Assembly (NCBI GenBank): GCA_028290405.1
Contig: JAQGJX010000163.1
Coordinates: forward strand, 1-41,009
Origin: Hyphomicrobiales bacterium
GTDB lineage: Bacteria; Pseudomonadota; Alphaproteobacteria; Rhizobiales; Beijerinckiaceae
Reading direction: 5' to 3'
Length of the DNA stretch: 41,009 bases
In this document: positions 26,139-41,009 of the stretch, piece after piece
How positions within the stretch are numbered: the stretch's first letter is position 1
How the letters are laid out: each line of letters begins with the position of its first letter
Program-made: the position numbers and the translations under genes
The notes under the pieces: generated by a model
What the model saw: the letters and a program-made list of their open reading frames with translations, nothing else
Told to the model about the DNA's origin: nothing
Databases searched by the model: none

Positions 26139-26209
26139 GTTGCCTCCACGTTTGCACAAACGCGCGGCGCCCTGCGCCGTCATCCTTTCGCTCGCCCCAT
26201 GCGCAGCCG

Positions 26210-26224
26210 TGGCACGGCGCTTGC
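26210..26224 (+). promoter_or_regulatory. Sigma54 (-24/-12) promoter for the TRAP operon
   Basis: TGGCACG, four bases (GCGC), TTGC: a complete core match. GG at 26211-26212 and GC at 26223-26224 are ten bases apart. The predicted start is about 26236, 29 bases before ATG 26265. Sigma54 control of C4-dicarboxylate uptake by DctB/DctD-type systems is well known in rhizobia. Confidence 0.78.
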
Positions 26225-26264
26225 GTTCCCCATTGTCGAATTGCATTCCAATGGAGAAGCTCAC

Positions 26265-27365
26265 ATGAAGCGTCGTGCATTTCTCAAGGCTGGCGTGCTC
26301 GGCGGCGTCGCCGGCGCCATTGCGGCGCCCTCCATCGCGACCGCGCAGCAGAAGACCTTCTCGTGGAAGATGACCAACGCCTATGGCCCCGGCTCGCCCT
26401 TCTATGTGGCCGGCCCCGGCAGCCCGACCGACTTCTGCGAGATGGTCAAGAAGATGTCCGGCGGCCGCCTGCAAATCCAGCACTTCGCGGCCGGCGAACT
26501 GATCCCTGCGCTCGAGGGCTTTGACGCGGTGTCGAAGGGCATCGTCGAGATGAACGCCGCCAACAGCTACTTCTGGTCCGGCAAGACGTTCGCAGCGCAG
26601 TACTTCACCGCCGTCCCCTTCGGGCTCAACTTTCAGGGCATGAGCGCGTGGCTGTATCACGGCGGCGGGCAGAAGCTGTGGGAGGAGGTCTACGCGCCCT
26701 TCAACCTCATGCCCATGGCCATGGGCAACACCGGCGTGCAGATGAGCGGCTGGTTCCGCAAGCCCATCGAGAAGATCGAGGACTTCAAGGGCCTGAAGAT
26801 GCGCATTCCGGGCCTTGCCGGCAAGGTGCTGGCGGGCTTCGGGGTGGATGTGAAACTGCTGCCGGGCGGGGAGATCTTCCCCGCGCTGGAACGCGGCGTG
26901 ATCGACGCGGCGGAGTTCGTGGGTCCCTACCAGGACCGCCGCCTCGGGCTGCAGAAAGCCGCGAAGTACTATTACACGACCGGCTGGCACGAGACGTCCA
27001 CCGTCACCGAGCTGATCGTCAACAAGACCGCGTGGAACTCGCTTCCCGAAGACCTGAAGGAAATCGTGAAGGCCGCAGCCGCGGCGTGCAACACCATCAG
27101 CCACACCTGGTGCGAGGCGACGAACGCGGAAGCGCTGGACGACCTGATCAAGAACCAGGGCGTCATCGCCGCCCCCCTGCCCGCCGAGATCGTCGCCAAG
27201 CTGCGCGAGGCGACCTACAACGTGCTGGAGGAAGCCGCCGCCAAGGACGCGCTGGTGAAGAAGGTGCACGACAGCTTCATGGCCTTCAAGGCCAACCACG
27301 ACAAATGGGCCGGCGTCTCGGAGGCGGTCTACCAGAGCCAGATCCGCGGCCCCCTGAAGGCCTGA
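26265..27365 (+). CDS. dctP: TRAP transporter substrate-binding protein DctP (TakP-like)
   Basis: Periplasmic receptor of 366 residues. The N-terminus MKRRAFLKAGVLGGVAGAIA is a clear twin-arginine signal (RRAFLK) with cleavage near ATA-QQ. Conserved features are GLKMRIPGLAGKVLAGFGV (ligand arginine region), LPGGEIFPALERGVIDAAEFVGPY and LGLQKAAKYYYTTGWHE. The EFVGPY/YYY/GWHE pattern recalls TakP of Rhodobacter, which binds 2-oxoacids, so a keto- or hydroxy-carboxylate ligand is likely. GGAG lies upstream of the ATG. It heads a three-gene operon under a sigma54-type promoter. Confidence 0.92.
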   Translation: MKRRAFLKAGVLGGVAGAIAAPSIATAQQKTFSWKMTNAYGPGSPFYVAGPGSPTDFCEMVKKMSGGRLQIQHFAAGELIPALEGFDAVSKGIVEMNAANSYFWSGKTFAAQYFTAVPFGLNFQGMSAWLYHGGGQKLWEEVYAPFNLMPMAMGNTGVQMSGWFRKPIEKIEDFKGLKMRIPGLAGKVLAGFGVDVKLLPGGEIFPALERGVIDAAEFVGPYQDRRLGLQKAAKYYYTTGWHETSTVTELIVNKTAWNSLPEDLKEIVKAAAAACNTISHTWCEATNAEALDDLIKNQGVIAAPLPAEIVAKLREATYNVLEEAAAKDALVKKVHDSFMAFKANHDKWAGVSEAVYQSQIRGPLKA

Positions 27366-27369
27366 CGCC

Positions 27370-27936
27370 ATGACCAATCCGAACGCACTGGCGGGCCAGC
27401 TTGAAGCGCTGGCCCGCAGGCTGGACGTCGCTGTCGAAATCGCCGGCCGGGTCGGCGCATGGACGGGCTTCGCGCTCGTCGTCGTCATGGCCGGCAACGT
27501 CATCGTCCGCTACGTCTTCCACACCGGCTCGGTCGCCATGCAGGAGCTGGAATGGCACCTCATGGCGCCGGTCTCGCTCCTGTGCATCGCGTACGCGATC
27601 AAGCACGAGGGCCACATCCGCGTCGATATTCTCTACGGACGGATGAGCCTTCGCGCGCAACAGTCGATTGAACTCGTGTCCTGCGTGCTGGCGCTGCTGC
27701 TCAGCGTCATCATCGTCTATCTCTCCGTCCCTTACGTCATGCAGTCCTTCGGCATGATGGAGCGCTCGCCCGATCCCGGCGGGCTGCCCTATCGCTACCT
27801 GCTCAAGGCGATCATCCCCCTGGGCTTCGCGTTCCTGGCCCTCCAGAGCCTCGCCTCCGTCTGCCGGGCGCTCGTTCCCTTCACCCAAACGGCCTCGGGA
27901 CTCCCCGCTGCTTCGGAGCCGGTCGATGCCGTATAA
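27370..27936 (+). CDS. dctQ: TRAP transporter small permease DctQ
   Basis: 188-residue membrane protein with four predicted segments. Family hallmarks are NVIVRYVFHTGSVAMQELEWHLM and IKHEGHIRVDILYGRMSLRAQQSIEL, where HIRVD is the DctQ signature. It starts four bases after dctP and overlaps dctM by 11 bases. It scaffolds the large permease and does not itself carry substrate. Confidence 0.93.
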   Translation: MTNPNALAGQLEALARRLDVAVEIAGRVGAWTGFALVVVMAGNVIVRYVFHTGSVAMQELEWHLMAPVSLLCIAYAIKHEGHIRVDILYGRMSLRAQQSIELVSCVLALLLSVIIVYLSVPYVMQSFGMMERSPDPGGLPYRYLLKAIIPLGFAFLALQSLASVCRALVPFTQTASGLPAASEPVDAV

Positions 27937-29251
27937 CGAAATCCTCGCGATCCTCTGCATCGTCTCGTTCTTCGCCATGCTGGCCATCGGCGTTCCGGTC
28001 GCCATTACGCTGGCGGTCAGCGGGTTCGTGTTCGGCTGGCTCGGCTTCGGCTCGCTGCTGTTCGGCCTGCTGCCCGCGCGCATCTTCGGCGTCGCGGCCA
28101 ATTACACGCTCATCGCCATACCGCTCTTCGTGTTCATGGGCGTCATGCTTGAGAAGTCGAAGATCGCCAACGAGCTGATGGAGGTCATCGGCCATTTGTC
28201 GGGGGGCCTGCGCGGCGGCATGGGCATCGGCATCATTCTGGTGGGCGTGCTCATGGGCGCGACCACCGGCATCGTGGGCGCCACCATCGTGACGCTGGGC
28301 CTGCTCACCCTCCCGACGCTGCTGCGGCGCGGCTACGATAAAAGCCTGGCGTGCGGGGCCATCTGCGCCTCCGGCACGCTCGGCCAGCTCATTCCGCCCA
28401 GCACCATTCTGATCCTGCTGGCGGACATCATGGGCCAGTCGGTCGGCACGCTGTTCGCCGCGGCGGTGTTTCCGGGCCTCATGCTGTCGGGCATCTTCTG
28501 CCTCTATTTCCTCGCCATCGGCTATTTCAAGCCGCATCTGGCGCCGGCGATTCCGCTCGAAGAGCGCAAGGCCATGCCGCGCCGCGAGCTTTTGCTGAAA
28601 ACGCTCAAGGTCGGCCTGCCGCCTATCGCGCTCGTCGTCGCCGTGCTGGGCTCCATCATCGGCGGCGTCGCGGCGCCGACCGAAGCGGCGTCCATGGGCG
28701 CGCTCGGCAGCATTTTCGTCGCCGCCATGCTGGGACGGTTGAACTGGGAGACGCTGCGCGACACAATTTACTCCACGGGCCGCATCACGGCCGCCATGAT
28801 GTTCGTGCTGGTCTGCGCCCAGGTGTTCGCCCTCGCGTTCCGCGGATTGCAGGGCGAAAAGCTGGTCCACGACCTGTTCGCCCTGGTGCCGGGCGGCACG
28901 ACCGGCGTGATGGTGTTCATGCTGTTCCTGATCTTCATCCTGGGCTTCTTCATCGAATGGATCGAGATCAGCTACATCGTCGTGCCGATGTTCGTTCCCC
29001 TGCTGGCGAACGCGGGCGTCGATCCGGTGTGGACCGCGACGCTGATCGCGGTGGTGCTGCAAACCTCGTTCCTCACGCCGCCCTTCGGCTGGGCGCTGTT
29101 CTACCTGCGGGGCGTCGCGCCGCCGGACGTGACGACCCTCGACATCTACAAGGGCGTCGTCCCCTTCATCGCCCTCCAGCTTTGCGCCCTGGCCCTCGTG
29201 TTCCTTTATCCGGGCATCGCCACATGGCTCCCCAAGGCCATCGGCTGGTAG
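27926..29251 (+). CDS. dctM: TRAP transporter large permease DctM
   Basis: 441-residue, 12- to 13-segment secondary carrier driven by a sodium gradient in known systems. DctM stretches are ANYTLIAIPLFVFMGVMLEKSKIANELME, GIVGATIVTLGLLTLPTLLRRGYDKSLACGAICASGTLGQLIPPST and the C-terminal QTSFLTPPFGWALFYLRGVAP. The length is standard. A perfect ten-base-pair hairpin 21 bases after its stop probably ends the operon. Confidence 0.94.
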   Translation: MPYNEILAILCIVSFFAMLAIGVPVAITLAVSGFVFGWLGFGSLLFGLLPARIFGVAANYTLIAIPLFVFMGVMLEKSKIANELMEVIGHLSGGLRGGMGIGIILVGVLMGATTGIVGATIVTLGLLTLPTLLRRGYDKSLACGAICASGTLGQLIPPSTILILLADIMGQSVGTLFAAAVFPGLMLSGIFCLYFLAIGYFKPHLAPAIPLEERKAMPRRELLLKTLKVGLPPIALVVAVLGSIIGGVAAPTEAASMGALGSIFVAAMLGRLNWETLRDTIYSTGRITAAMMFVLVCAQVFALAFRGLQGEKLVHDLFALVPGGTTGVMVFMLFLIFILGFFIEWIEISYIVVPMFVPLLANAGVDPVWTATLIAVVLQTSFLTPPFGWALFYLRGVAPPDVTTLDIYKGVVPFIALQLCALALVFLYPGIATWLPKAIGW

Positions 29252-29320: not shown

Positions 29321-29349
29321 TTGACAGGCGGAAAGGTTCGGTCCAGATT
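29321..29349 (+). promoter_or_regulatory. Sigma70-type promoter of operon A
   Basis: TTGACA (29321-29326), 17-base spacer, CAGATT (29344-29349). The -35 is perfect and the -10 weak (3 of 6). The expected start, about 29356, falls inside the LacI-type operator. The same layout occurs at 35818-35846. Confidence 0.65.
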
Positions 29350-29363
29350 TGCAATCGATTGCA
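29350..29363. promoter_or_regulatory. LacI-family operator O1
   Basis: TGCAATCGATTGCA, a perfect 14-base palindrome with the central CG typical of LacI-family operators. It directly follows the -10 box and covers the expected start, so binding would block initiation. It matches O2 at 35848-35861 at 13 of 14 positions. The likely binder is the LacI-family gene at 34683-35744. Confidence 0.8.
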
Positions 29364-29421
29364 CCGGGAGCGCGCGAGATGATCGCGCGCCGATAAAACC
29401 CGGGCGAACGAGGGAAACGTC

Positions 29422-30078
29422 ATGTCGGGACCGCGCATCAGCTATGTTGATCCTGCCGCCGTGAACGATACGCAGATGCTCGCGGAATTCGAACGTTGCG
29501 CCAAGGTCGGCACGCCCCGGCCCGAGAGCCAGGCGATCCGCGCCCATGTGCCCGCGGTGTTCTGGTCCTTCGCCAATTCGTGGCGCGACGTGTTCCATAC
29601 GGGCGTCGCCGACCACGCGGTGAAGGAGCTTTGCCGCACCTATGTCTCGCGCTCGGTCATGTGCGAGTATTGCGGCAACCAGCGCTCCATCAAGGCCGCC
29701 GGACAGGGCCTCGTGGAGGACGACTACCGGGACCTTCTCGAGTTTGAAAAGTCGGTCCGCTACGACGAGCGGCAGAAGGCCGCCCTCGCCTACGCGGAGG
29801 CGATCACCTGGGACCTGCCGACCGACGACGCCTTCTGGGCGCGCCTGAAGGGCCAGTTCAGCGAGGCCGAGATCGTCGAGATCGGCTATTTCATCGCGCT
29901 CACCATGGGCCAGCAGCGCTGGCTGCGCACGCTCAACATCGAGCATCACCAGATCCTCGCCGGAACCGACGGCTCCATGGCGCCCGGCTTCGAGACCGAA
30001 GAAGCCCTGCGCAACGCCAAGGCCTCGCAGGATTATTGGGCGAAATCCGCCCCCCGCCCGCCCGAGCGCGCCGCGTGA
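29422..30078 (+). CDS. Carboxymuconolactone decarboxylase-like (AhpD-like) protein
   Basis: 218-residue cytoplasmic protein, first gene of operon A. The CxxC motif MCEYCGNQRSIKAAGQG (Cys 81 and 84) followed by LLEFEKSVRYDERQKAALAYAEAITWDLP and FSEAEIVEIGYFIALTMGQQRWLRTLNIEH is the CMD fold found in AhpD and in gamma-carboxymuconolactone decarboxylase-like proteins. The CxxC suggests thiol redox rather than lactone decarboxylation, but the exact role is unknown. It lies under the LacI-type operator O1, and its stop overlaps the next ATG by one base (TGATG). Confidence 0.85.
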   Translation: MSGPRISYVDPAAVNDTQMLAEFERCAKVGTPRPESQAIRAHVPAVFWSFANSWRDVFHTGVADHAVKELCRTYVSRSVMCEYCGNQRSIKAAGQGLVEDDYRDLLEFEKSVRYDERQKAALAYAEAITWDLPTDDAFWARLKGQFSEAEIVEIGYFIALTMGQQRWLRTLNIEHHQILAGTDGSMAPGFETEEALRNAKASQDYWAKSAPRPPERAA

Positions 30079-30920
30079 TGAGCATGGCGATGGACCAGCG
30101 GGCGCCTGCGCACGAGACAGCCAAGGCGCCCCAAGGCGAGCGGGCGCCGGCGCGCATTCGCGCGCGCGGCCTCGGCAAGCGCTATGGCGCGCTGCAGGTC
30201 TTTCGTGACATTGATTTTGAGGTCGGCGAACGGGAGATCGTCGCCATCGTGGGGCCCTCGGGCTGCGGCAAGACCACGCTGCTGCGCTGCATCAACGGCC
30301 TCATTCCGCTGGACGCAGGCGAGATCGTCGCCAACGGCGAGCGCGTCACGCAGCCCATCGCCGGCATGGCGATGGTGTTCCAGCACTTCGGCCTCTTCCC
30401 GTGGAAGACCGTCACGGCCAACGTGGCCTACGGGCTGCGCATGGCGGGCGCGACGCGCGCGGAAATCGCCGAAAAGGTTCCCTATTTCATCAATCTTGTG
30501 GGGCTCGCGGGCTTCGAGCACGCTTATCCCTACCAGATGTCGGGCGGCATGCAGCAGCGCTGCGGACTCGCCCGCGCGCTCGCCATCGAGCCGAACGTGC
30601 TGCTCATGGACGAGCCGTTCGCGGCGGTCGATGCGCAAACGCGCGAGATCCTGCAATTTGAACTGCTGCGCATCTGGAGCGAGCGCCCGACCGCCATGGT
30701 GTTCGTCACCCATTCCATCGAGGAAGCGGTGCTGATGGGCCATCGCGTGATGGTGCTGAAGGGTCGCCCGTCGTCCATCTTCGAGATGGTGGACATCGAC
30801 CTGCCCTTTCCGCGCAACCGCAGCACGCTCCTGCATCCCCGCTTCGCCAAGCTGCGCGAGCATGTGTGGCGCTGCGTCATGGACGAAGCGCAGGCGGCGG
30901 AGCGCGAACTGCACGTGTAG
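30078..30920 (+). CDS. NitT/TauT-type ABC transporter ATP-binding protein
   Basis: ATPase of 280 residues. Walker A GPSGCGKTTLLRCINGL follows a 30-residue N-terminal extension. Then come VFQHFGLFPWKTVTANVAYGLRM (the FPWKTV loop is the group hallmark), signature MSGGMQQRCGLARALAIEP, Walker B LLMDEPFAAVDAQTRE and switch His in VTHSIEEAVLMG. I chose ATG 30078, which overlaps the previous stop; ATG 30084 is also possible. Such importers carry nitrate, sulfonates, pyrimidine precursors or aromatic acids. Confidence 0.92.
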   Translation: MSMAMDQRAPAHETAKAPQGERAPARIRARGLGKRYGALQVFRDIDFEVGEREIVAIVGPSGCGKTTLLRCINGLIPLDAGEIVANGERVTQPIAGMAMVFQHFGLFPWKTVTANVAYGLRMAGATRAEIAEKVPYFINLVGLAGFEHAYPYQMSGGMQQRCGLARALAIEPNVLLMDEPFAAVDAQTREILQFELLRIWSERPTAMVFVTHSIEEAVLMGHRVMVLKGRPSSIFEMVDIDLPFPRNRSTLLHPRFAKLREHVWRCVMDEAQAAERELHV

Positions 30921-30982
30921 ATCCAGCTTCAACAATCCGAACAACGCGACCAAAGAAGTCGCAATCAGCGAGGGAGACCGTG

Positions 30983-31999
30983 ATGGCGAACAGATTGGCA
31001 CAAGGCGTCCGTATCGTCGCGGCCGCGGCCGTCGCCGCAGCCGCTCTGGGGTTTGCGGCTGGCGCGCAGGCGCAGCAGCGCCCCAAGGTGACACTCGGCC
31101 TTCCGGGCATTCCGCCGGTCTTCGTCACCGTGCAGGCCTATACGGCGCAGCAGCAGAAGCTGTTCGAGAAGTACGGCGTCGACGTTGTCCTGCGTCCGTT
31201 CGACAGCGGCGCGGCTGCGGCGCGCGCGGTCGTCTCCGGCGACGTGGAGATTTCGCTCTCCCCCTCCCCGCTTATCGTCAACATGATATCGAACGCCAAC
31301 GTGGATCTGGTGACCATCTATGGCAACGAGAAGCCGGACTGGCTGCTCAGTTCTCTTGATCCCGCCAAGACCAAGTGCGAACAGATGAAGGGACAGCCGA
31401 TCGGCGTGGATTCGCTGGGCGGCGCGCGCTCCATCGCCCTGCAGCAGATGCTGTTCCAGTGCGGTCTGAAGGCTGAGGACACGCAGCAGGTGGCGCTGGG
31501 CACCAACGTGCACGCGGCCATGTCGGGCGGGCAACTGGCCCTTGGCGTGCTGCATGTGGACGACGTGCCCATCATCGAGCGCGCGTCCGGCAAGAAGCTG
31601 ACGACCATCATCGACATCAACGACGTCTACAAGGTGAACCATTACATGGCGATCACCACCACCCGCAAGCGGGTGGCCGAGCAGCGGGACGCGCTCGTGC
31701 GCGTGCTTGCGGCGCTCATCGAGGCGGAGCGCTTCATCTCCGACCCCAAGAACATCGACGCCGTCGCCAAGATCGCCGCCCCCACCGGCCGCTCCGAGGC
31801 AGAAGCCAAGTGGGCCATTCCCGAATACGTCAAGATGGGCTTCTGGCCCAAGGGGGCGGGGCTGGACAAGGCCAACATCGAGGCCATCATCGCGCAGCAG
31901 AAGGCGGTGGGCGGCATCAGGCCCAACGCCACCCCGGTGACCTACGAGCGCTACGCCGACACGTCCCTCTTCGAGGACGCCAGGAAGCTCGTGAAGTAG
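30983..31999 (+). CDS. NitT/TauT-type ABC transporter substrate-binding protein (NMT1/SsuA-like)
   Basis: Periplasmic receptor of 338 residues. The signal peptide MANRLAQGVRIVAAAAVAAAALGFAAGAQA is cut before QQRPKVTLGLPG. Features of the fold: GIPPVFVTVQAYTAQQQKLFEKYGVDVVLRPFDSGAAAARAVVSGDVEISLSP, and GQPIGVDSLGGARSIALQQML. Two cysteines (in TKCEQM and FQCGLK) could form a disulfide. ATG 30983 has GGGAGA upstream; the frame is open further upstream without similarity. It sits between the ATPase and permeases of operon A. The ligand is not recognisable. Confidence 0.9.
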   Translation: MANRLAQGVRIVAAAAVAAAALGFAAGAQAQQRPKVTLGLPGIPPVFVTVQAYTAQQQKLFEKYGVDVVLRPFDSGAAAARAVVSGDVEISLSPSPLIVNMISNANVDLVTIYGNEKPDWLLSSLDPAKTKCEQMKGQPIGVDSLGGARSIALQQMLFQCGLKAEDTQQVALGTNVHAAMSGGQLALGVLHVDDVPIIERASGKKLTTIIDINDVYKVNHYMAITTTRKRVAEQRDALVRVLAALIEAERFISDPKNIDAVAKIAAPTGRSEAEAKWAIPEYVKMGFWPKGAGLDKANIEAIIAQQKAVGGIRPNATPVTYERYADTSLFEDARKLVK

Positions 32000-32022
32000 C
32001 GCGGCGGAAAGGGGCGCGGCGC

Positions 32023-32784
32023 ATGGCCCAGCCGAGATTCTGGAGCGGGCAGGCGATCGGGATTGCGGCGCTCGTCGCAGGCGCCCTCGTCTGGGAGATC
32101 GGCGCGCAATTCGCCAACCCGGCGTTCGTCGCGCCCTTCTCCACCACCGCCGCCCGCATGTGGGAATATGCGGCCAGCGGCACGCTGACCGATGCGCTGG
32201 CGAGTTCGCTCGCCATCTACGTGAGCGGGATGGCCTACGCCATCGTGGTCGGCGTCGGGCTCGGCCTGCTCCTCGCCCGCGCGCGCCTGCTGCGCATCGG
32301 GCTCGAGAGCTACATCATGATCCTCTACTCGACGCCCATGGTGGCGTTGATCCCCTTCATCCTCTCCATGATGGGCTTCGGCTTCGCCCCCAAAGTCCTC
32401 GTGGTGTTCCTCTTCGCGGTCTTCTCGGTGCTCTACAACACGCTCGAAGGCGCGCGTTCGCTCAAGCCGGAGCTGCTGGAAGTCGCGCGCTCGTTCCGCT
32501 CCAGCGAATATGCGGTCTGGCGCGACATCCTCGTGCCCTACACTCTGCCCTTCGCCATGACGGGGATCCGGCAGGGCATCGGGCGCGGGCTCGTGGGCCT
32601 CGTGTCGGCCGAGTTCTTCCTGTCGGGCAGCGGCATCGGCCTCCTGATCATCCGCAGCGGACAGGACTTCGACGTGCCGGGCCTCTACGGCGCCATCATG
32701 GTCATCACCATCCTGGGCGTCGCCCTGATGGCGATTGGCCGCACCCTCGAAAACCGCTTCGCGGCGTGGCGAGGCCTCTCATGA
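32023..32784 (+). CDS. NitT/TauT-type ABC transporter permease 1 (SsuC-like)
   Basis: Inner-membrane permease of 253 residues, about six segments. The EAA-type loop is LKPELLEVARSFRSSEYAVWRDILVPYTLPFAMTGIRQGIGRGLVGLVSAEFFLSGSGIG, characteristic of SsuC/TauC. It starts 23 bases after the receptor gene, with GGAAAGG upstream, and overlaps the second permease (ATGA). The two permeases differ in sequence, so the pore is probably a heterodimer, unlike the homodimers of SsuC or TauC. Confidence 0.92.
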   Translation: MAQPRFWSGQAIGIAALVAGALVWEIGAQFANPAFVAPFSTTAARMWEYAASGTLTDALASSLAIYVSGMAYAIVVGVGLGLLLARARLLRIGLESYIMILYSTPMVALIPFILSMMGFGFAPKVLVVFLFAVFSVLYNTLEGARSLKPELLEVARSFRSSEYAVWRDILVPYTLPFAMTGIRQGIGRGLVGLVSAEFFLSGSGIGLLIIRSGQDFDVPGLYGAIMVITILGVALMAIGRTLENRFAAWRGLS

Positions 32785-33590
32785 GCGACGCCGCCCTGCC
32801 TGCGGCCGTTCCGGCCAGGAAGCGCTTGGGCCTCAGCGACGAGGCTCTGGCGCGCATCGTCTGCGGCCTCGCCATCCTGGCTGTCTGGGAAGGCGCCATG
32901 CGCCTGTGGGCGCCGCCCTTCATCGCCCGGCCGTCCGGCATCGCCGTCGCCTTCTGGCCGACCATCACCAGCGCTGCGTTTCTGGAGGCGGCGGGCGCGA
33001 CCCTGGGGGCCATGGCGCAGGGCCTCGCCATCGCGGTGGTCGCCGGCACGGTCATCGGGCTCGCCATCGGCCGCTCGTGGATCGCCGACCGCGCCCTGCA
33101 CTATTACGTCAACGGCCTCTTCGCCATGCCCATGGTGGCGATCCTGCCGCTGCTCACCCTGTGGTTCGGCTACACCTCCGGCGCGCGGCTCGCCACCGTG
33201 GTGTTCGCCTCCATCTTCGCCATCATCATCAACGTCTCGGACGGGGCGCGCTCGGTTCCGCGCGAGTACATCGAAGTCTCGCGCGCCTACCGCGCCAGCG
33301 GTTTCTCGCGCCTCATGGAAGTGGTGCTTCCGGCCTCCGTGCCTTACCTGCTGGCGGGCCTGCGGCTGGCGGCGGGCCGCGCGCTCATCGGCGCAGTGGT
33401 GGCTGAGTTCTTCGCCGCGCTGAACGGTCTCGGCTATTTCATCCTCTTCAACACCCGCACGTTCAAGCACAACGAGGCGTTCGTGGCCGTGCTGTGCCTT
33501 GCTTGCTTCGGCGTGGCCGTCGAGCTGATGATGAACGGCGCCACCCGGCGCTACCTGCCCTGGTACAGGCGCGAAGACCGCGGCGCCTGA
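32781..33590 (+). CDS. NitT/TauT-type ABC transporter permease 2 (SsuC-like)
   Basis: Second permease, 269 residues, with a hydrophilic N-terminus of about 28 residues. Family stretches are YYVNGLFAMPMVAILPLLTLWFGYTSGARLATVVFASIFAIIINVSDGARSVPREYIEVSRAYRASGFSRLMEVVLPASVPYLLAGLRLAAGRALIGAVVAEFFAALNGLGY. The ATG overlaps the previous stop. It completes the importer of operon A and is followed by the hydrolase gene after 28 bases. Confidence 0.92.
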   Translation: MSDAALPAAVPARKRLGLSDEALARIVCGLAILAVWEGAMRLWAPPFIARPSGIAVAFWPTITSAAFLEAAGATLGAMAQGLAIAVVAGTVIGLAIGRSWIADRALHYYVNGLFAMPMVAILPLLTLWFGYTSGARLATVVFASIFAIIINVSDGARSVPREYIEVSRAYRASGFSRLMEVVLPASVPYLLAGLRLAAGRALIGAVVAEFFAALNGLGYFILFNTRTFKHNEAFVAVLCLACFGVAVELMMNGATRRYLPWYRREDRGA

Positions 33591-33618
33591 GGGATTTTCC
33601 GCACGTGAAGGATCATCG

Positions 33619-34686
33619 ATGAACGACGCCGTCGTCCGCTCCGCCATCCACCATTGGGGCCCGCGCTTCGTCGCGAACGGCGTCGCGCTGACCGACTTCG
33701 AGGAAGTCACCGCCTCCATCGGCGCGTGGAGCGAGTGGTGCGATAAGTGGTGCGCGCGCGCCGCGGTTCACGAGGCCATGGGGCGCGAGGCGCTGGCGCA
33801 CGGCAAGCGCCTCAGCGCCGGCGAGCACCTGCAACGCGCCGGCGTCTACTACCATTTCGCCAAGTTCCTCTTTGTTCACGACGTGCCCCAGATGCGCGCG
33901 GCGCACGCCAGGGCCATCGCGTGCCGCAACGACGCGCTGCCGCATCTTGCCCCGTCGGGCGAGCGCATCGAAATCCCCTTCGAGGGCCGGACGCTCGCGG
34001 GGATCCTGCGCAAGCCGCGCGGAGCGGCGCGCCCGCCCGTGATGCTGATGGCCTGCGGCCTCGATTCCTGCAAGGAGGAGACGGAGGCCTACGAGGCGCC
34101 CTTCCTCGCCCGGGGGATCGCGATCTTCGTCTTCGACGGGCCCGGACAGGGCGAGACGGAATACGATCTCCCCATCCGGGGAAACTACGAAACCGCCGTC
34201 ACGGCGATCATCGACGCGCTGCAAAAGCGCGACGACGTGGACCGGGACCGCATCGGCATGTGGGGCGTCAGCATGGGCGGCTATTACGCGCCGCGCGCCG
34301 CCGCCTTCGACGAGCGCATCCGCGCCTGCATCGCCCTCTCGGGCCCCTACGACTGGGCGGACGCGTGGCCCACCCTGCCGGGCCTGACGCGCGAAGCCTT
34401 CCGGGTGCGCAGCCACAGCGCGAACGAGGCGCAGGCGCTCGAGGTCGCCCGGACGCTCACGCTGCGGGGCGTGGCGGCGCGCATCCGCTGCCCCATCTTC
34501 ATCGTCGCCGGGAAGCAGGACACCGTGGTGCCCTGGCGCGACGCCGAGAAGCTGGCCCGCGAGGTCTCCGGCCCGGTGGAGTTCCTCGCCATCGAGGACG
34601 GGAACCACGTCGCCAACAACAGGGCCTATCGCTGGCGCCTCCAGACCGCGGACTGGATGGCCGGACAACTCGGCGCGGCGGGCTAA
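33619..34686 (+). CDS. Alpha/beta hydrolase, 2,6-dihydroxypseudooxynicotine hydrolase/FrsA-like
   Basis: 355-residue cytoplasmic hydrolase. An N-terminal helical cap (residues 1 to about 115, including HLQRAGVYYHFAKFLFVHD) precedes the core domain. The nucleophile is Ser 218 in RIGMWGVSMGGYY, with Asp 301 in AGKQDTVVPW and His 330 in IEDGNHVANN. Cap, length and triad spacing resemble the Arthrobacter 2,6-dihydroxypseudooxynicotine hydrolase, which cuts a C-C bond next to a ketone; from memory its triad is Ser217-Asp300-His329. Esterase or other C-C hydrolase activity is also possible. It is the last gene of operon A, and its stop overlaps that of the convergent LacI gene by four bases. Confidence 0.85.
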   Translation: MNDAVVRSAIHHWGPRFVANGVALTDFEEVTASIGAWSEWCDKWCARAAVHEAMGREALAHGKRLSAGEHLQRAGVYYHFAKFLFVHDVPQMRAAHARAIACRNDALPHLAPSGERIEIPFEGRTLAGILRKPRGAARPPVMLMACGLDSCKEETEAYEAPFLARGIAIFVFDGPGQGETEYDLPIRGNYETAVTAIIDALQKRDDVDRDRIGMWGVSMGGYYAPRAAAFDERIRACIALSGPYDWADAWPTLPGLTREAFRVRSHSANEAQALEVARTLTLRGVAARIRCPIFIVAGKQDTVVPWRDAEKLAREVSGPVEFLAIEDGNHVANNRAYRWRLQTADWMAGQLGAAG

Positions 34687-35744
34687 CGCGTCAGCGAGCG
34701 CACGCGCGGCGCGGGCTTGCTGGCCGCCGCCGGCGCCGTGGAGCCCCGCACGATCAGTTCGACAGGCAGCACGACGCTGCGCGCCGGCGGCGCCTCGCCG
34801 CGCGCGTTCATCCGTTCCAGCAACACGCCGGCCGCCATGAACCCCACCTGGTATTGCTGGATGCGGATCGTCGTCAGCGGCGGGTCGATCCGGTCGACCA
34901 TCGGCATGTCGTTGAACCCCGTCACGGACAGATCCTGCGGGCAGCGCATCCCGCGGGCCCGCAGGGCGCCCAGGGCGCCGATGGCCAGGCGGTCGTTGGC
35001 GCACAGCACCGCCGTGAACCGGCCGCCGCCGTCCAGCAGCTCCCCCATGCAGCGGGCGCCGTCGTCCTCGTTGAACGCGCCCGCAAAACGCACCGGACCT
35101 GCAAGAAGGCCCAGCGCGGCGGCGTGAAGCACGAACGCCTGGTGGCGCTTCTTGCCCGTGGAGAGGTTCTGGTCTCCCGCGATGGCGGCGATGCGCGTGT
35201 GGCCGATGGAGGTGAGGTGCTCCAGCATCATCCGGATTCCTGCGGCGTCGTCGCTCACCACGGAGGCGATGGAGGGATCGTCCACGCTGCGGTTGACGGT
35301 GACGATCGGCACGCCCTGCCCGGCGAGCTCGCCAATGGCGGCGTCCTCGCGCTGCACGCTGGCGACCACGAGCCCGTCCACCCCGCGCGCCGACAACGCG
35401 TCGAGAATCACCGCCTCGCGCTCGCGCCGCCCGTCGGTGTTGACCACCAGCGTCGCGTAGCCCTTGTCCAGCAACGCATCCTCGACGCCCCGGATGATCG
35501 GCGGAAAGATCGAGTTGGTGATGTCCGGCACCACCACCCCCACGGTCTTGGTGCGGTTGGTGCGCAGGCTGTAGGCTGCGGTGTTGGGCCGATAGTCGAG
35601 CGCTCGGCTGGCTTGCGCGATCCGCTCGGCGATCTCGTCGGTAATGAGATGGCGCGTGTGCGGATTCAGCGCGCGCGACACTGTCGAGACGTGCACGCCC
35701 ACCGCCTGCGCGACATCTTTCAACGTGGACCGCTTCCTGGCCAT
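34683..35744 (-). CDS. LacI-family transcriptional repressor
   Basis: 353-residue DNA-binding regulator. The N-terminal helix-turn-helix is TLKDVAQAVGVHVSTVSRALN (residues 7-27), followed by the hinge ALDYRPNTAAYSLRTNRTKTVGVVVPD and a periplasmic-binding-protein-like sensor domain (CANDRLAIGALGALRARGMRCPQDLSVTGFNDMP). The hinge Leu in AYSLRT would insert at the central CG of the operator. ATG 35744 gives the normal LacI start; the frame is open further upstream. The gene lies between two operons whose promoters carry the matching palindromes O1 and O2, and O2 is in its own upstream region. The effector, unknown, should be the imported compound or a product. Confidence 0.93.
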   Translation of the reverse strand: MARKRSTLKDVAQAVGVHVSTVSRALNPHTRHLITDEIAERIAQASRALDYRPNTAAYSLRTNRTKTVGVVVPDITNSIFPPIIRGVEDALLDKGYATLVVNTDGRREREAVILDALSARGVDGLVVASVQREDAAIGELAGQGVPIVTVNRSVDDPSIASVVSDDAAGIRMMLEHLTSIGHTRIAAIAGDQNLSTGKKRHQAFVLHAAALGLLAGPVRFAGAFNEDDGARCMGELLDGGGRFTAVLCANDRLAIGALGALRARGMRCPQDLSVTGFNDMPMVDRIDPPLTTIRIQQYQVGFMAAGVLLERMNARGEAPPARSVVLPVELIVRGSTAPAAASKPAPRVRSLTR

Positions 35745-35817
35745 GGCGCCCTTTCGCGCGTGAACAAGCCGCGTCGATACCACCTGCCCGCGCGAACTTC
35801 CACAAACCCTCGAACGC

Positions 35818-35846
35818 TTGACACGATAACGCGACGGGCCCATAAA
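35818..35846 (+). promoter_or_regulatory. Sigma70-type promoter of operon B
   Basis: TTGACA (35818-35823), 17-base spacer, CATAAA (35841-35846, 4 of 6). The expected start is about 35853, inside operator O2. The arrangement is base-for-base equivalent in spacing to the operon A promoter. Confidence 0.7.
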
Positions 35847-35847
35847 A

Positions 35848-35861
35848 TGCAAACGATTGCA
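35848..35861. promoter_or_regulatory. LacI-family operator O2
   Basis: TGCAAACGATTGCA, a near-perfect 14-base palindrome with central CG, differing from O1 by one base. It begins two bases after the -10 box of operon B and lies 104 bases upstream of the divergent LacI gene, so it could also give autoregulation. Confidence 0.8.
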
Positions 35862-35952
35862 TGATTGCGGCGCAGCGCTCGGCGCGCGCCCGCGACGTGC
35901 GGTTTCAGACAACCCGGCCGACGCAAGATCGGGCGAGGAAGGGAGCGGACGA

Positions 35953-37257
35953 ATGATCGACGGCGGCGCCTTGAGACCCAACATCGTCAAGCCCGGCGAC
36001 ATCGATCCCAACTGGCGCTGGGACCGCGCGATCCCCGCCTATGGCCACACGTCCGTGGATTTTGAACGCCGCGTGGACCACGACCGGCTGCGCAAGTATC
36101 GCCTTGGCCGCGCCAAGCAGGCGCTGAAGAACTCCCAGTGCGGCGCGCTGCTGCTGTTTGACGTCAACAACATCCGCTACGTCTCCGGCACCAAGATCGG
36201 GGAATGGGAGCGCGACAAGCTCTGCCGCTTCGCGCTGCTGGCGGGGGACGAGGAGCCCATTGTGTGGGATTTCGGCTCCGCCGCCGTCCACCACAAGGTC
36301 AATTGCGACTGGCTGCCGACCGACAACTGGCGCGCCGGCATGCTGGGCATGCGCGGCACCGTGCCACCCTCCGTGGGGCTGATGAAATATCACGCCGAAG
36401 AGGTGATGGACCTGCTGCGCAAGGCGGGCGTCGCCGACATGCCGGTGGGCGTGGACCTCGCCGAAACCGCCATGTTCTTCGAACTGCAAAAGGCGGGCAT
36501 GAAGGTCGCCGACGGCCAGCAGGTGATGCTGGACGCGCGCGAGATCAAGAACATCGACGAGATCGTGCTGCTCAACCAGGCGGCCGCCATGGTGGATGGC
36601 GTCTACCACATGATTTACGAAGAGCTGAAGCCTGGCGTGCGCGAGAACGACATCGTCGCGATGGCGAACAAGATGCTCTACGAGATGGGCTCGGACGACG
36701 TTGAGGCCATCAACGCCATCTCGGGCGAGCGCTGCAATCCGCACCCGCACAATTTCACCGACCGTTATTTCAGGCCCGGCGACCAGGCGTTTTTCGACAT
36801 CCTGCAATCCTACCAGGGTTACCGGACCTGCTACTACCGCACCTTCAACATCGGGCGCGCCAACGACGGCCAGCGCGACGCCTACACCAAGTGCCGCGAA
36901 TGGCTCGACGCCGCCATCGCGCTCATCAAGCCGGGCGTCTCGACGGACACGGTGGCCAAAGTGTGGCCCAAGGCCGAAGAGTTCGGCTTCCCGAGCGAGC
37001 TTGCGGCCTTCGGCCTGCAGTTTGGCCACGGCCTCGGGCTGGCCCTGCACGAGAGGCCCATCATCTCGCGCCTCGTGTCCCTCGACAATCCGATGGAGAT
37101 CAAGACCGGCATGGTCTTCGCGCTCGAAACCTATTGCCCCGCGCGTGACGGTTTCTCGGCCGCGCGCATCGAGGAAGAGGTCGTCGTCACCGACAAGGGC
37201 TGCCAGGTCATCAGCCTCTTCCCGGCCGAAGAGCTCCCCATCGCCAATCGTTACTGA
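35953..37257 (+). CDS. M24-family metallopeptidase-like protein with altered metal site (DddP-like layout)
   Basis: 434-residue protein of the creatinase/aminopeptidase P fold. The N-terminal domain (residues 45-170) has CGALLLFDVNNIRYVSGT. In the pita-bread domain the expected five metal ligands are only partly present: Asp 282 (FFDILQSY), then Cys 293 in GYRTCYYRTF where Asp is usual, His 359 (FGHGLGLALHERP), Glu 392 (ALETYCP) and Glu 407 (RIEEEV). Overall layout recalls DddP-type M24 lyases and Xaa-Pro dipeptidase paralogues, but the Asp-to-Cys change suggests a different or missing metal and chemistry. AGGAAGGGAG precedes ATG 35953. It is the first gene of operon B under O2. Confidence 0.85.
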   Translation: MIDGGALRPNIVKPGDIDPNWRWDRAIPAYGHTSVDFERRVDHDRLRKYRLGRAKQALKNSQCGALLLFDVNNIRYVSGTKIGEWERDKLCRFALLAGDEEPIVWDFGSAAVHHKVNCDWLPTDNWRAGMLGMRGTVPPSVGLMKYHAEEVMDLLRKAGVADMPVGVDLAETAMFFELQKAGMKVADGQQVMLDAREIKNIDEIVLLNQAAAMVDGVYHMIYEELKPGVRENDIVAMANKMLYEMGSDDVEAINAISGERCNPHPHNFTDRYFRPGDQAFFDILQSYQGYRTCYYRTFNIGRANDGQRDAYTKCREWLDAAIALIKPGVSTDTVAKVWPKAEEFGFPSELAAFGLQFGHGLGLALHERPIISRLVSLDNPMEIKTGMVFALETYCPARDGFSAARIEEEVVVTDKGCQVISLFPAEELPIANRY

Positions 37258-37288
37258 GCGCAGCACAAGAAAACACGAGGAGACGTCC

Positions 37289-38314
37289 GTGACGGCTAAC
37301 GTCAGCCCCTCGGCCATTGCGCCGGCCAATGACGACATCGGCGCCGACACGCGGCGCGATCTCTATCGCCTGCAACTTGAAATCCGGCTGTTCGAGAAGC
37401 GCGCCTACGATCTCTTCCTGCAAAACCTCGTCAAGGGCACCAGCCATCTGTCGCTGGGGCAGGAGGCGATCGCGGCCGGCATGGCGCGGGCGATGAAGAA
37501 AGGCGATCTCTCCTTCTGCACCTATCGCGGCCATGCGCACACGCTGGCGCGCGGCGTGCCGATGGAGAAGGTGCTGGGCGAGTTGATGCAGCGCGACAAC
37601 GGCCTGATGCGCGGCAAGGGCGGCTCCATGCATCTCACCTCCGCCGAGCACGGCGTCATGGGCTCCTACGCCATCATCGGCGCGCATCTGCCCATCGCAT
37701 GCGGGGCCGCGTGGCGCGCACAATACCTGGGGCAGGACGACGTGTCGGTCTGCTTCTTCGGCGACGGCACGACGAACATCGGCGCCTTTCATGAGGCGCT
37801 GAACTTCGCCAAGGTCTGGAGCCTGCCGGTCGTGTTCGTGTGCGAGAACAACCTCTACATGGAATATACGCCCATCGGCGACGTGACCGCCGTGGAGCAT
37901 CCCGCCGCCGACCGCGCGTCCGCCTACGGGCTGGAGCGCATCATCGTCGACGGCAACGACGCCGACGCCGTCTATCGCATCGCGCAGGCCGCGTTCGCCA
38001 GGGCGCGGGCGGGCGGCGGCCCCTCGCTGATCGAGTGCAAGACCTACCGCCATTCAGGGCATTCGCGCGCGGACCCGGGCGCCTACCGCCCCAAGGGCGA
38101 GCTGGAGGAATGGCTGAAGCGCGATCCGGTGAAGCTCTACCGCCAGCGGCTCGCGGAGTTCGGCATACCGGAAGCCGACATCGCGGCGATTGAAACGGAG
38201 GTTCTGGCGCAGGTGGATCAAGCGACGGAGGCGTGCAAGGCCGCGCCCGCGCCGCCCGAGGAACTGCTGTGCACGGACGTGTACGCCGACGGGGGATGGG
38301 CATGGCGGAACTGA
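37289..38314 (+). CDS. 2-oxoacid dehydrogenase E1 component, alpha subunit (PdhA/AcoA-like)
   Basis: 341-residue thiamine-diphosphate subunit. Key stretches: QNLVKGTSHLSLGQEAIAAGMARAM, CTYRGHAHTLARGVPMEKVLGELM, GKGGSMHL, the cofactor motif GDGTTNIGAFHEALNFAKVWSLPVVFVCENN (GDG at 158-160, NN at 187-188), and YRHSGHSRADPGAYRP (phosphorylation-loop region). The GTG at 37289 has GAGGAG six bases upstream and gives the usual length; the frame is open further back through the M24 gene. With E1 beta it decarboxylates a 2-oxoacid or cleaves acetoin and acylates the lipoyl E2. Sequence does not separate pyruvate, acetoin and related substrates. Confidence 0.92.
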   Translation: MTANVSPSAIAPANDDIGADTRRDLYRLQLEIRLFEKRAYDLFLQNLVKGTSHLSLGQEAIAAGMARAMKKGDLSFCTYRGHAHTLARGVPMEKVLGELMQRDNGLMRGKGGSMHLTSAEHGVMGSYAIIGAHLPIACGAAWRAQYLGQDDVSVCFFGDGTTNIGAFHEALNFAKVWSLPVVFVCENNLYMEYTPIGDVTAVEHPAADRASAYGLERIIVDGNDADAVYRIAQAAFARARAGGGPSLIECKTYRHSGHSRADPGAYRPKGELEEWLKRDPVKLYRQRLAEFGIPEADIAAIETEVLAQVDQATEACKAAPAPPEELLCTDVYADGGWAWRN

Positions 38315-39279
38315 CATATCGCGACGCCGTCGCGCGCGGCATCGCCCAGGAGATGGAGCGCGACGAACGCGTGGTGTTTCTTGGCGAGGACGTCGCCAAG
38401 GCGGGCGGCGTGTTCAAGGCCACGGTCGGGCTCTACGACCGCTTCGGCCCCAAACGCGTGCGCGACACGCCGATCTCCGAACAGGCGATTCTGGGCGCCG
38501 CCATGGGCGCGGCCATGACGGGCCTGCGGCCCATCGCGGAAATCATGTTCTCGGACTTTCTGGCGGTGTGCTTCGATTTCATCGCCAACGAATTTCCCAA
38601 GACGCGCTACATGACTAACGGCCAGCTTGGCTGTCCGCTGGTGGTGCGCACCGGCAATGGCGCAGGGTCGCGCTTTGGCGCGCAGCATTCGCAATCCGTC
38701 GAGAACTGGTCGATGATGATCCCCGGCCTGAAGGTCGTGGCGCCGTCGAGCCCCGTGGACGTGGTGGGCCTGATGGCCGCCGCCGTGCGGGACCAGAATC
38801 CCGTGATCTTCTACGAGCACAAGTCGCTCTACGCCGTGAAGGGCGAGGTGCCGGACGGGGAGATCGTGGACACGCTGGGCACGGCTCGAATCCTGCGCCC
38901 CGGCCGCGACTGCACCATCCTTGCGCTGGCGCTCATGGTGCCCCGCGCCATGGAGGCGGCCGAAACGCTCAGCGCAGAGCACGGGATCGACTGCGAGGTG
39001 ATCGACGTGCGCTCGCTGGTGCCGCTGGATACCCAGACCATTCTGGGCTCCATCGCCCGCACCGGGCGCCTGTTCACCGTGGAGGAGAACCCCCGCCTGT
39101 GCGGCTGGGGCGCCGAGATCGCATCCATTGCGGCCGATGAAGCGTTCTACGATCTCGATGGGCCGATCGTGCGCATCACCACGCCGCATATTCCCCTCCC
39201 CGCCGCCGACAATCTCGAAGACATCGCGCTGCCCAATCCGCGCCGCATCGTCGAGAAAATCCTTCGGGCGATGGGCTAG
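38302..39279 (+). CDS. 2-oxoacid dehydrogenase E1 component, beta subunit (PdhB/AcoB-like)
   Basis: 325-residue partner of E1 alpha. Family stretches are LTYRDAVARGIAQEMERDERVVFLGEDVAKAGGVFKAT, RDTPISEQAILGAAMGAAMTGLRPIAEIMFSDF, RTGNGAGSRFGAQHSQS (active-site His region) and the C-terminal CEVIDVRSLVPLDTQTILGSIARTGRLFTVEE. It overlaps the end of E1 alpha by 13 bases. ATG 38302 has GGGGGA at a good distance; ATG 38296 lies too close to it. Full length and all usual blocks are present. Confidence 0.92.
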   Translation: MAELTYRDAVARGIAQEMERDERVVFLGEDVAKAGGVFKATVGLYDRFGPKRVRDTPISEQAILGAAMGAAMTGLRPIAEIMFSDFLAVCFDFIANEFPKTRYMTNGQLGCPLVVRTGNGAGSRFGAQHSQSVENWSMMIPGLKVVAPSSPVDVVGLMAAAVRDQNPVIFYEHKSLYAVKGEVPDGEIVDTLGTARILRPGRDCTILALALMVPRAMEAAETLSAEHGIDCEVIDVRSLVPLDTQTILGSIARTGRLFTVEENPRLCGWGAEIASIAADEAFYDLDGPIVRITTPHIPLPAADNLEDIALPNPRRIVEKILRAMG

Positions 39280-39294
39280 CCAAGGACGCACGCC

Positions 39295-40737
39295 ATGAGC
39301 CAGACCGACGCACCGACAGGCCTGTACATCGACGGCCAATTCGTGGACGCCTCCGACGGCGGGCGGTTTGACGTGGTGAACCCCGCCAACGAAGAGGTCA
39401 TCGCCTCCGTGGCGAGCGCGACCGAGGACGACGCCATGCGGGCGCTGGACGCGGCGCAAGCGGCGTTTCCGGCCTGGGCCGCCCAGACCCCGCGTGCGCG
39501 CGGCGAAATCCTGCGCAAGACGTGGGAACTCATCATGGCCGATCAGGAGCGCCTTGCGCGCCTGATTACGCTGGAGAACGGCAAGGCCCTGTCGGACGCG
39601 CGCGGCGAGATCGCGTACGCGGCCGAATTCTTCCGCTGGTATGCGGAGGAAGCGGTGCGCAACATCGGCGACGTCATGCGCTCGCCCTCCAGCGGCGCGC
39701 GCATTCTCGTGCAGCACAAGCCCGTCGGCGTGGGCGTTCTCGTCACGCCGTGGAATTTCCCCGCCGCCATGGGCACGCGCAAGATCGGCCCCGCGCTGGC
39801 CGCCGGCTGTCCGGTGGTCGTCAAGCCCGCGTCCGACACGCCCCTCACCATGCTGGCGCTGATGCCCCTGCTGGAGAAGGCGGGAGTGCCCAAGGGCGTG
39901 GTCAACGTCATTCCCTCCCGCAGCTCTGGCGCGGTGGTGGACAAGCTGCTGCATGACCCGCGCGTGCGCATCGTATCCTTCACGGGCTCCACCGAGGTCG
40001 GCCGCAAGCTGCTGCACGGCGCCGCCGACAACGTGGTCAACGCCGCGATGGAGCTGGGCGGCAACGCGCCCTTCATCGTCTGCGCCGACGCCGACGTGGA
40101 CGCCGCCGTCGAGGGCGCCATGATCGCCAAGATGCGAAACATGGGCGAGGCCTGCACGGCCGCCAACCGCTTCTACGTGCACGAGAGCGTGCATGACGCC
40201 TTCGCCCGCAAGCTCGCGGCGCGCATGGGCGCGATGAAGATCGGCGACGGGCTGGAGCCGGGCGTGGAGGTCGGGGCCCTGGTGAACAAGGAGACGCGCG
40301 ACAAGGTGATTCACTTCGTGGAGGACGCCAAAGCCAAGGGCGCGAAGGTTCTCACGGGCGGAAGGGCGCTGGACCGCAAGGGCTTCTTCTACGAGCCCAC
40401 GGTGCTGACCGATGTGGCGGACAGCTCGGACCTTCTCTGCGACGAGATCTTCGGCCCCGTGGCGGCCATCCAGCGGTTCAGCGACGAGGACGAGGTGGTG
40501 CGGCGCGCCAACGACACCCAGTACGGCCTCGTGGCCTATCTCTACACGCGTGACGTCGGACGCGGCCTCGCGCTCAGCGAGCGGCTGGACTTTGGCATGA
40601 TCGGCCTCAATCGCGGGCTTGTGTCGGACCCTGCGGCGCCCTTTGGCGGCATGAAGCAATCAGGCGTCGGGCGCGAAGGCGCGCACGAAGGCATGATGGA
40701 ATTTCTGGAGACGCAATACGTCTCCGTGGCCTGGTAG
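39295..40737 (+). CDS. NAD(P)-dependent aldehyde dehydrogenase, succinate-semialdehyde dehydrogenase-like
   Basis: 480-residue ALDH, standard length for the GabD group. Motifs: VTPWNFPAAMGTRKIGPALAAGC (Asn 154), VVKPAS (Lys 177), FTGSTEVGRKLL, the general base Glu 253 in MELGGNAPF and the nucleophile Cys 287 in NMGEACTAANRFYVH. The C-terminal GLNRGLVSDPAAPFGGMKQSGVGREGAHEGMMEFLETQYV is typical of succinate-semialdehyde dehydrogenases. It is placed inside the dehydrogenase-complex operon, 15 bases after E1 beta and 20 before E2, which implies that it acts in the same pathway, for example on a semialdehyde released by the hydrolase step. Confidence 0.9.
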   Translation: MSQTDAPTGLYIDGQFVDASDGGRFDVVNPANEEVIASVASATEDDAMRALDAAQAAFPAWAAQTPRARGEILRKTWELIMADQERLARLITLENGKALSDARGEIAYAAEFFRWYAEEAVRNIGDVMRSPSSGARILVQHKPVGVGVLVTPWNFPAAMGTRKIGPALAAGCPVVVKPASDTPLTMLALMPLLEKAGVPKGVVNVIPSRSSGAVVDKLLHDPRVRIVSFTGSTEVGRKLLHGAADNVVNAAMELGGNAPFIVCADADVDAAVEGAMIAKMRNMGEACTAANRFYVHESVHDAFARKLAARMGAMKIGDGLEPGVEVGALVNKETRDKVIHFVEDAKAKGAKVLTGGRALDRKGFFYEPTVLTDVADSSDLLCDEIFGPVAAIQRFSDEDEVVRRANDTQYGLVAYLYTRDVGRGLALSERLDFGMIGLNRGLVSDPAAPFGGMKQSGVGREGAHEGMMEFLETQYVSVAW

Positions 40738-40757
40738 CGGCGGACGGGGGCGAGGCG

Positions 40758-41009
40758 ATGGACGTGTTGATGCCGCAACTGGGCGAGACCGTGAAGGAAG
40801 GCAAGATTTCCGCATGGTTCAAGAGCGCAGGCGACGCCATCGAGGCCGGAGACAACCTGTTTGAAATCGAGACCGACAAGGTCTCCATGGAAGTGCAGGC
40901 GACTGAAAGCGGTCCGCTGACGGAAATCCGCGTGCCCGTGGGAGCCGTGGCGCCAGTTGGCGCCATCGTGGCGGTGATCGGCACGGGCAGCGGACGCGTG
41001 GACGCGGCG
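40758..41009 (+). CDS. Dihydrolipoamide acyltransferase E2, N-terminal lipoyl domain (truncated by window edge)
   Basis: The first 84 codons are present and the frame is open to the edge. MDVLMPQLGETVKEGKISAWFKSAGDAIEAGDNLFEIETDKVSMEV is a lipoyl domain; Lys 41 in ETDKVS carries lipoate. The catalytic domain and probably an E3 gene lie beyond the window. The ETDKVSMEV wording fits AcoC- and SucB-like as well as pyruvate-type E2 proteins. It receives the acyl group from the adjacent E1. Confidence 0.9.
   Translation, partial: MDVLMPQLGETVKEGKISAWFKSAGDAIEAGDNLFEIETDKVSMEVQATESGPLTEIRVPVGAVAPVGAIVAVIGTGSGRVDAA

Follow-up and report, generated by a model that had tools for sequence, protein, structure and literature searches.

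Does a LacI-family repressor gene in the contig analysed here control the genes on both sides of it as one catabolic regulon, and what would such a regulon degrade? The window, a 41,009-nucleotide stretch from a Hyphomicrobiales bacterium (Beijerinckiaceae; GCA_028290405.1, JAQGJX010000163.1), is the whole of contig C49 in a 4.07 Mb genome of 223 contigs. The repressor gene (34,683–35,744, minus strand) lies between operon A (29,422–34,686), which runs from a CMD-like gene through an importer to a hydrolase gene, and operon B, which starts at 35,953 with the gene for an M24-fold protein and extends to the contig end. An earlier note on this DNA had proposed that the two operons form a LacI-controlled regulon, and every gene it named is an open frame whose coordinates agree exactly or to within a few codons with those it had given. 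We predict that both operons indeed belong to one LacI regulon, a reading that is well supported because they share an operator in the window, the same operator is conserved upstream of LacI homologs, its sites link both gene sets in a genome from another family of the same order (G106), and Flavimaricola marinus carries both sets in one cluster.

A predicted shared operator

The pattern TGCAANCGATTGCA, which was not part of the earlier note and was found in the present analysis, has two exact matches in the genome, both of them in the window. Predicted operator A (TGCAATCGATTGCA, 29,350–29,363) is a perfect palindrome whose centre lies 65 bases 5' of the CMD-like start codon, and predicted operator B (TGCAAACGATTGCA, 35,848–35,861) lies between the LacI and M24 genes. 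The reversed control pattern has no exact match in the same genome. With up to two mismatches allowed, the window contains four strand-matches, all at the two palindromic sites; shuffled windows gave a mean of 0.74 matches, and 3 of 100 reached four. The repressor combines a LacI helix-turn-helix (Pfam LacI 45.1 bits, cut-off 27) and a ligand domain (Peripla_BP_3, 124.1 bits) with a conserved palindrome upstream of its putative target genes, two of the features that mark a local LacI-type regulon.

The operator is found within one mismatch upstream of all 23 LacI homologs with at least 43% identity beside M24-type loci (16 exact, 7 with one mismatch); homologs below 43% identity were left out (L120, 31%), and the 23 rows correspond to 22 contigs, as L037 and L096 apparently represent one contig. 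Base-shuffled upstream copies, which keep base content only, equalled the real site in 0 of 500 cases for 22 of these rows and in 1 of 500 for the remaining one. Of 150 genomes, our own included, 17 encode M24 orthologs with 72–100% identity, at 18 places in total, and an exact operator is present in 10 of these 17 versus 9 of the 133 genomes without M24 (p 1e-6). Within the genus, seven of eight genomes with an M24 ortholog have an exact TGCAAWCGATTGCA site, and the eighth (G020) has one mismatch.

A scan of 299 genomes, again including our own, detected the operator pattern in 26 and the reversed control in none. M24, LacI or the module's 3-hydroxyisobutyrate-dehydrogenase-like gene (HIB) is located at the site in 13 of these 26 genomes (G000, G003, G013, G022, G024, G030, G031, G106, G121, G129, G268, G274 and G295). 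Three module loci were found by the operator scan alone: G268 has the order LacI-M24-E1alpha-E1beta-ALDH-E2-HIB (E1 and E2, components of a 2-oxoacid dehydrogenase complex; ALDH, aldehyde dehydrogenase), G295 has M24-E1alpha-E1beta-ALDH-E2 together with HIB, a glutathione S-transferase (GST) gene and a Liv importer, and G274 has LacI-HIB in the 3 kb covered.

Linkage of operon A to operon B

G106 has exact sites between a hydrolase pair and the Liv-type importer genes that diverge from it and include a GST gene, as well as between HIB and LacI and before M24. The single cluster of F. marinus (L105) comprises LacI, HIB, GST, two hydrolases, a NitT-type importer, M24, E1, lipoyl E2 and ALDH, with a one-mismatch operator beside LacI; its receptor shows no match to the window receptor, though the importer type is the same. 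The earlier note's two-operon proposal is thus borne out by the operator shared in the window, by its recurrence in G106 and by the arrangement in L105, as far as gene order and predicted sites can tell.

Several observations weigh against this reading. Half of the genomes with an exact operator (13/26) show no module there, or none was seen, and the exact operator is absent from 7 of the 17 M24 genomes of the order. Both L185 and L188 have the operator between the gene for a LacI protein and one for an intradiol-dioxygenase-like protein, and thus another repressor of the bacterium's own genome could bind it; it also precedes an intradiol-dioxygenase-like gene in L200 and L247 (all by eye), and related repressors therefore appear to use the same sequence. 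By presence, the link is weak: 5 of the 17 M24 genomes and 13 of the other 133 encode a full-length hydrolase of at least 45% identity (Fisher p 0.035, not counting the 93-residue fragment found in G011), and six of the eight same-genus genomes carry the M24 operon without the hydrolase. Finally, the CMD orthologs in G022 and G024 adjoin another LacI gene that is without this operator.

These points would fit two separate pathways that share only a repressor site, operon A serving one compound and operon B another (e.g., pyruvate or acetoin), with the adjacency being recent: most genomes with operon B have no hydrolase, the CMD orthologs found elsewhere lie next to a different LacI gene, and other LacI genes use the operator. 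Against separate pathways stand the operator that hydrolase, importer and M24 operon share in G106, their single cluster in L105, the presence of the hydrolase within the fetched stretch in 11 of 98 M24 loci, and the hydrolase tree. Of the 15 rows labelled M24-linked in this tree, 13 belong to a single 14-row group, the support of which (92/88) does not earn the program's star; the remaining two are a distant pair, from G106 and L105, and branch elsewhere. The tree holds 34 of 40 rows, six at 31–34% identity being left out (L071, L076–L080), and L070, a 31% relative in the M24-carrying G022, is counted as not linked. We consider two separate pathways unlikely, while giving them some weight, and retain the single regulon. 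For the co-occurrence of the operons in other genomes, the lack of which the earlier note had named as refuting, the outcome is mixed: it holds for the enrichment and grouping of M24-linked hydrolases and fails for most carriers of the same genus.

Operon A itself is read as an accessory upper module. All its genes are on the plus strand: a CMD/AhpD-like protein with a CEYC motif (29,422–30,078; Pfam CMD 20.1 bits, under the cut-off of 23), the ATPase of a NitT/SsuB-type ATP-binding cassette (ABC) importer (30,090–30,920, with a start that may lie anywhere in 30,075–30,090), an NMT1/SsuA-like substrate-binding protein, the receptor (30,983–31,999), two importer permeases (32,023–32,784 and 32,781–33,590) and an alpha/beta hydrolase (33,619–34,686), the end of which overlaps LacI by 4 bases. 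Family names were taken from Pfam and NCBIfam profiles, the ABC ATPase and permeases being named by eye and by similarity among loci, and gene starts in fetched loci come from a codon-usage-based caller written for this analysis, not a published one. CMD orthologs (69–70% identity) are found only in G022, G024 and G121 of the 150 genomes, and all three carry M24, not adjacent. The CMD-like protein was rejected as part of a conserved module, since elsewhere it is not beside M24 genes.

Two neighbours were also noted by eye. A TRAP-type importer of three genes (26,127–29,251) ends 99 bases before operator A, and a gene at 4665–5261 on the minus strand resembles UbiX flavin prenyltransferases in its first residues.

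The M24 protein

The first gene of operon B (35,953–37,257, plus strand) encodes a protein with a predicted pita-bread fold (model confidence, pLDDT, 89). Its best Protein Data Bank matches are the DddP lyases 4s01 and 4b28, at 22–23% identity (closest match Foldseek E 6.7e-26, 23%), and its best-scoring NCBIfam model is likewise DddP (NF043017), with 103.5 bits compared to a cut-off of 600; it also scores far below the peptidase cut-offs. According to PMC4108388, the iron ligands of RdDddP are Asp295, Asp297, Asp307, His371, Glu406 and Glu421. The window protein keeps Asp282, His359, Glu392 and Glu407 and places Cys293 at the position of Asp307, and no Asp is found at the place of Asp297. All 92 distinct orthologs have Cys293 (the M24 loci number 98, some of them being one genome retrieved twice, and yield 92 different proteins), so that the second metal Asp of M24 metallopeptidases is replaced and the other four ligands are kept.

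Because Cys293 stands at the Asp307 place and Asp297 is without a counterpart, the protein is, judged by its motif, neither a canonical peptidase nor a DddP. A function as dimethylsulfoniopropionate lyase was rejected on the NF043017 score and the two missing Asp ligands. That M24 might simply be an ordinary dipeptidase and E1/E2 a spare pyruvate dehydrogenase, used for peptides or pyruvate, would fit the family matches of both; with the metal Asp exchanged for Cys in every distinct ortholog, scores so far under the peptidase and DddP cut-offs, and linkage to E1 and to ribose, Liv or NitT importers, we regard this as very improbable. An M24 enzyme with Cys in its metal site would widen the known range of the pita-bread/M24 fold.

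A core module in Alphaproteobacteria

Downstream of M24, on the same strand, operon B encodes the alpha (37,289–38,314; E1 domain profile, below its equivalog cut-offs) and beta subunits (38,302–39,279; above the cut-off of NF006667) of a 2-oxoacid/acetoin dehydrogenase E1, an aldehyde dehydrogenase resembling succinate-semialdehyde dehydrogenase (SSADH; 39,295–40,737) and the lipoyl domain at the start of E2 (40,758–41,009; profile match), which is cut by the contig end. The nearest solved structures to the window ALDH are mostly SSADHs, and it does not reach the cut-off of TIGR01780 (572 versus 646 bits). Since the remainder of E2 (from query residue 105, 66% identity) matches the very end of contig C88, where HIB, an Amidohydro_2 gene and an SsuD-like flavin monooxygenase gene follow in the same direction, operon B very probably continues there, as judged from gene order and direction on two contigs that are not joined.

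In a class-wide sample of 289 genomes, our own included, 11 have M24 orthologs of 67–100% identity, and relatives occur in at least 584 stretches of a species-level collection; the 80 named stretches kept of these include marine Rhodobacteraceae, SAR116 and Rhizobiales. Among the 98 loci, the next gene can be read in 95, and in 78 of these M24 is directly followed by E1alpha. In five loci, two short-chain dehydrogenase/reductase (SDR) genes and a gene for an FMN-dependent hydroxyacid dehydrogenase-like protein replace E1 after M24 (by eye). Two kinds of neighbourhood recur. The first brings together LacI, HIB, GST, hydrolase and importers of the Liv or NitT type; in the second, a ribose/inositol-type importer is accompanied by short-chain dehydrogenases, a ThuA-like protein and another that has a binding-protein-like domain. 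When mapped on a quick M24 tree, the neighbourhood switches at least 7 times (best estimate, 10) and the E1 type switches twice. From its conserved gene order and wide distribution, we identify M24-E1alpha-E1beta-E2-ALDH as a core that is widespread in Alphaproteobacteria, with apparently exchangeable importers and regulators around it. E1 falls into two types only ~40% alike, a further point against our reading, and its substrate may therefore differ between groups.

Two other features of these loci deserve mention. A protein of ~580 residues (cluster 8, no NCBIfam match) occurs in 60 of 98 M24 loci and is possibly a binding-protein-type regulator; in L140 (7358–9106, plus strand), an SBP_bac_1-like domain follows a DNA-binding-like N-terminus (by eye). 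In the SAR116-type locus L111 (16,047–21,188), sarcosine-oxidase-like genes come after the M24 operon (by eye), and the same is found by cluster in L103 and L104.

The hydrolase and the nicotine parallel

The closest solved structure to the window hydrolase is dihydroxypseudooxynicotine (DHPON) hydrolase 2jbw, with a full-length match (E 7.6e-48). PMC6122326 gives the triad of DHPON hydrolase as Ser217, Asp300 and His329, and on alignment to 2jbw the window enzyme has Ser218, Asp301 and His330 at these positions. Full-length similarity and catalytic triad together place it in the DHPON type, by homology. Glu248, proposed for a tautomerisation step, could not be located in the alignment: under the numbering that matches Ser217 and Asp300, position 248 of 2jbw reads Trp.

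The earlier note had drawn a parallel to nicotine catabolism, and this analogy is partly supported. According to PMC6122326, the DHPON hydrolase gene of pAO1 adjoins kdhL, a gene of the molybdenum ketone dehydrogenase. Molybdenum hydroxylase genes likewise adjoin the hydrolase relatives in 8 of 12 loci from same-genus genomes without M24 (L083–L088, L091 and L092), and a UbiD-type gene accompanies them in 9 of the 12 (those eight and L093); L089, L090 and L094, one of which is a 4.1 kb contig, have neither. These relatives support chemistry on hydroxylated ring compounds for the hydrolase family, if neighbouring genes are a guide. The hydroxylase by which a nicotine-type pathway would be recognised gave no match in the window or on C88 (tblastn, three subunits of L083/L084), and the molybdenum-linked hydrolases form a sister group to the different group that holds the window enzyme. 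A nicotine-like pathway for an N-heterocycle, in which ring hydroxylation precedes hydrolase cleavage of a C-C bond and succinate semialdehyde is an end product, would account for the DHPON-type structure match, the molybdenum-linked relatives and the SSADH-like enzyme. To our knowledge, M24 and E1/E2 have no part in the pAO1 nicotine pathway, and with no hydroxylase match on either contig and its hydrolase partners in a sister group, we think such a pathway improbable.

The loci from M24-free genomes are of interest in themselves. In L083–L088, L091 and L092, genes for molybdenum hydroxylase and UbiD accompany the DHPON-type hydrolase; several of these loci also carry a GMC oxidoreductase gene, and they presumably resemble clusters for furan or ring-acid degradation.

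Substrate

Neighbouring genes give several hints. Among solved structures, the one most similar to the GST of locus L127 is LigF beta-etherase (E 2e-23), and FAH, HpaH and HpaI-like genes follow HIB in 3 of 8 same-genus loci; in L033, HpaH is above its cut-off and HpaI just below. In G328 and G555, the M24-E1 genes are situated inside an inositol-type cluster. G328 has IolE and IolG above and IolC and IolB below their cut-offs, and its SSADH, which is above cut-off, belongs to another branch (47% identity to the reference ALDHs); in G555, gene names were assigned by likeness. The idea that M24 takes the place of IolD is unsupported, as G328 has IolD above cut-off elsewhere; G555 has none above it, but is 94% complete.

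The SSADH-like window enzyme suggests, by its similarity, a four-carbon semialdehyde. With low certainty, we place the substrate among ring-derived ketones (aryl or cyclic), possibly from aromatic, heteroaromatic or cyclitol rings. The neighbours also count against our reading, indicating an aromatic substrate in one group and a cyclitol in another, and the substrate class is therefore a guess.

Side observations touch on both groups. The operator lies beside intradiol-dioxygenase-like and SDR genes in L185, L188, L200 and L247, which looks like a related aromatic regulon (by eye), and in L229 and L228, from 1.4 Mb genomes, M24-E1 genes are found within an inositol catabolism cluster.

A literature search gave nothing that would link homarine-type pathways with the cluster, and the main text of PMC9007349 on fitness-based catabolism has no M24, creatinase, acetoin, ThuA or Xaa-Pro. 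The earlier note did not know the gene set as a described pathway; in agreement, no description was found in the open-licence literature searched, which is no proof of absence as most subscription papers lie outside it.

Proposed pathway

We think it reasonably probable that the window encodes one catabolic regulon under the LacI repressor at 34,683–35,744, with NitT import, hydrolase cleavage and a shared M24-E1/E2-ALDH lower module. The importer, C-C/ester hydrolase, dehydrogenase and SSADH-like enzyme that the earlier note had combined into a route are all supported, by homology only. In the proposed scheme, LacI would hold both operators in the absence of substrate and would be lifted by the imported compound or an intermediate. 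The ABC importer would take in a small organic acid or heterocycle-like compound, and the hydrolase, forming an acyl-enzyme at Ser218 in the manner proposed for DHPON hydrolase, would cleave a ketone-adjacent C-C bond (or an ester or lactone). One product would then enter the lower module, where the M24-fold enzyme may act on a small molecule rather than a peptide. Its product would be the substrate of the thiamine-pyrophosphate (TPP)-dependent E1/E2 complex, yielding an acyl-CoA, and the SSADH-like enzyme would oxidise an aldehyde fragment to the acid. The HIB enzyme encoded on C88 is probably part of the pathway. The lower module would be the conserved core, and importers, regulators and ring-opening enzymes would be swapped around it.

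More speculatively, and with doubts that slightly outweigh our confidence, we suggest that M24-E1alpha-E1beta-E2-ALDH is an undescribed lower pathway of Alphaproteobacteria. Its Cys-site pita-bread enzyme would act on ring-derived ketones by a new kind of small-molecule cleavage or elimination and pass the product to the TPP-dependent acyl-CoA-forming complex; different lineages would plug in their own importers, repressors and ring-opening enzymes (in one group, a DHPON-type hydrolase and a LigF-like GST; in another, SDR and inositol-type genes). The core is common across Alphaproteobacteria, and the predicted operator and compact cluster make finding the substrate practical.

Comparison with known systems

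The window repressor resembles those of local LacI/GalR regulons in its helix-turn-helix and periplasmic-binding-like domains, palindromic operator and divergent gene; it differs from them in scoring below the curated cut-off of each of the 19 listed NCBIfam LacI-type models. The hydrolase shares full-length similarity and the Ser-Asp-His triad with its pAO1 counterpart and has sister enzymes beside molybdenum hydroxylases, whereas the pAO1 nicotine pathway differs from the window and C88 in the hydroxylase itself. DddP lyases are closest to the M24 protein in fold and NCBIfam score, yet their iron ligands Asp297 and Asp307 have no counterpart Asp in it. The joint presence of E1alpha, E1beta, lipoyl E2 and an aldehyde dehydrogenase is what we take to be a likeness to the aco operon. 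Unlike acetoin and pyruvate dehydrogenase operons, however, operon B is led by an M24 gene, and its aldehyde dehydrogenase is SSADH-like.

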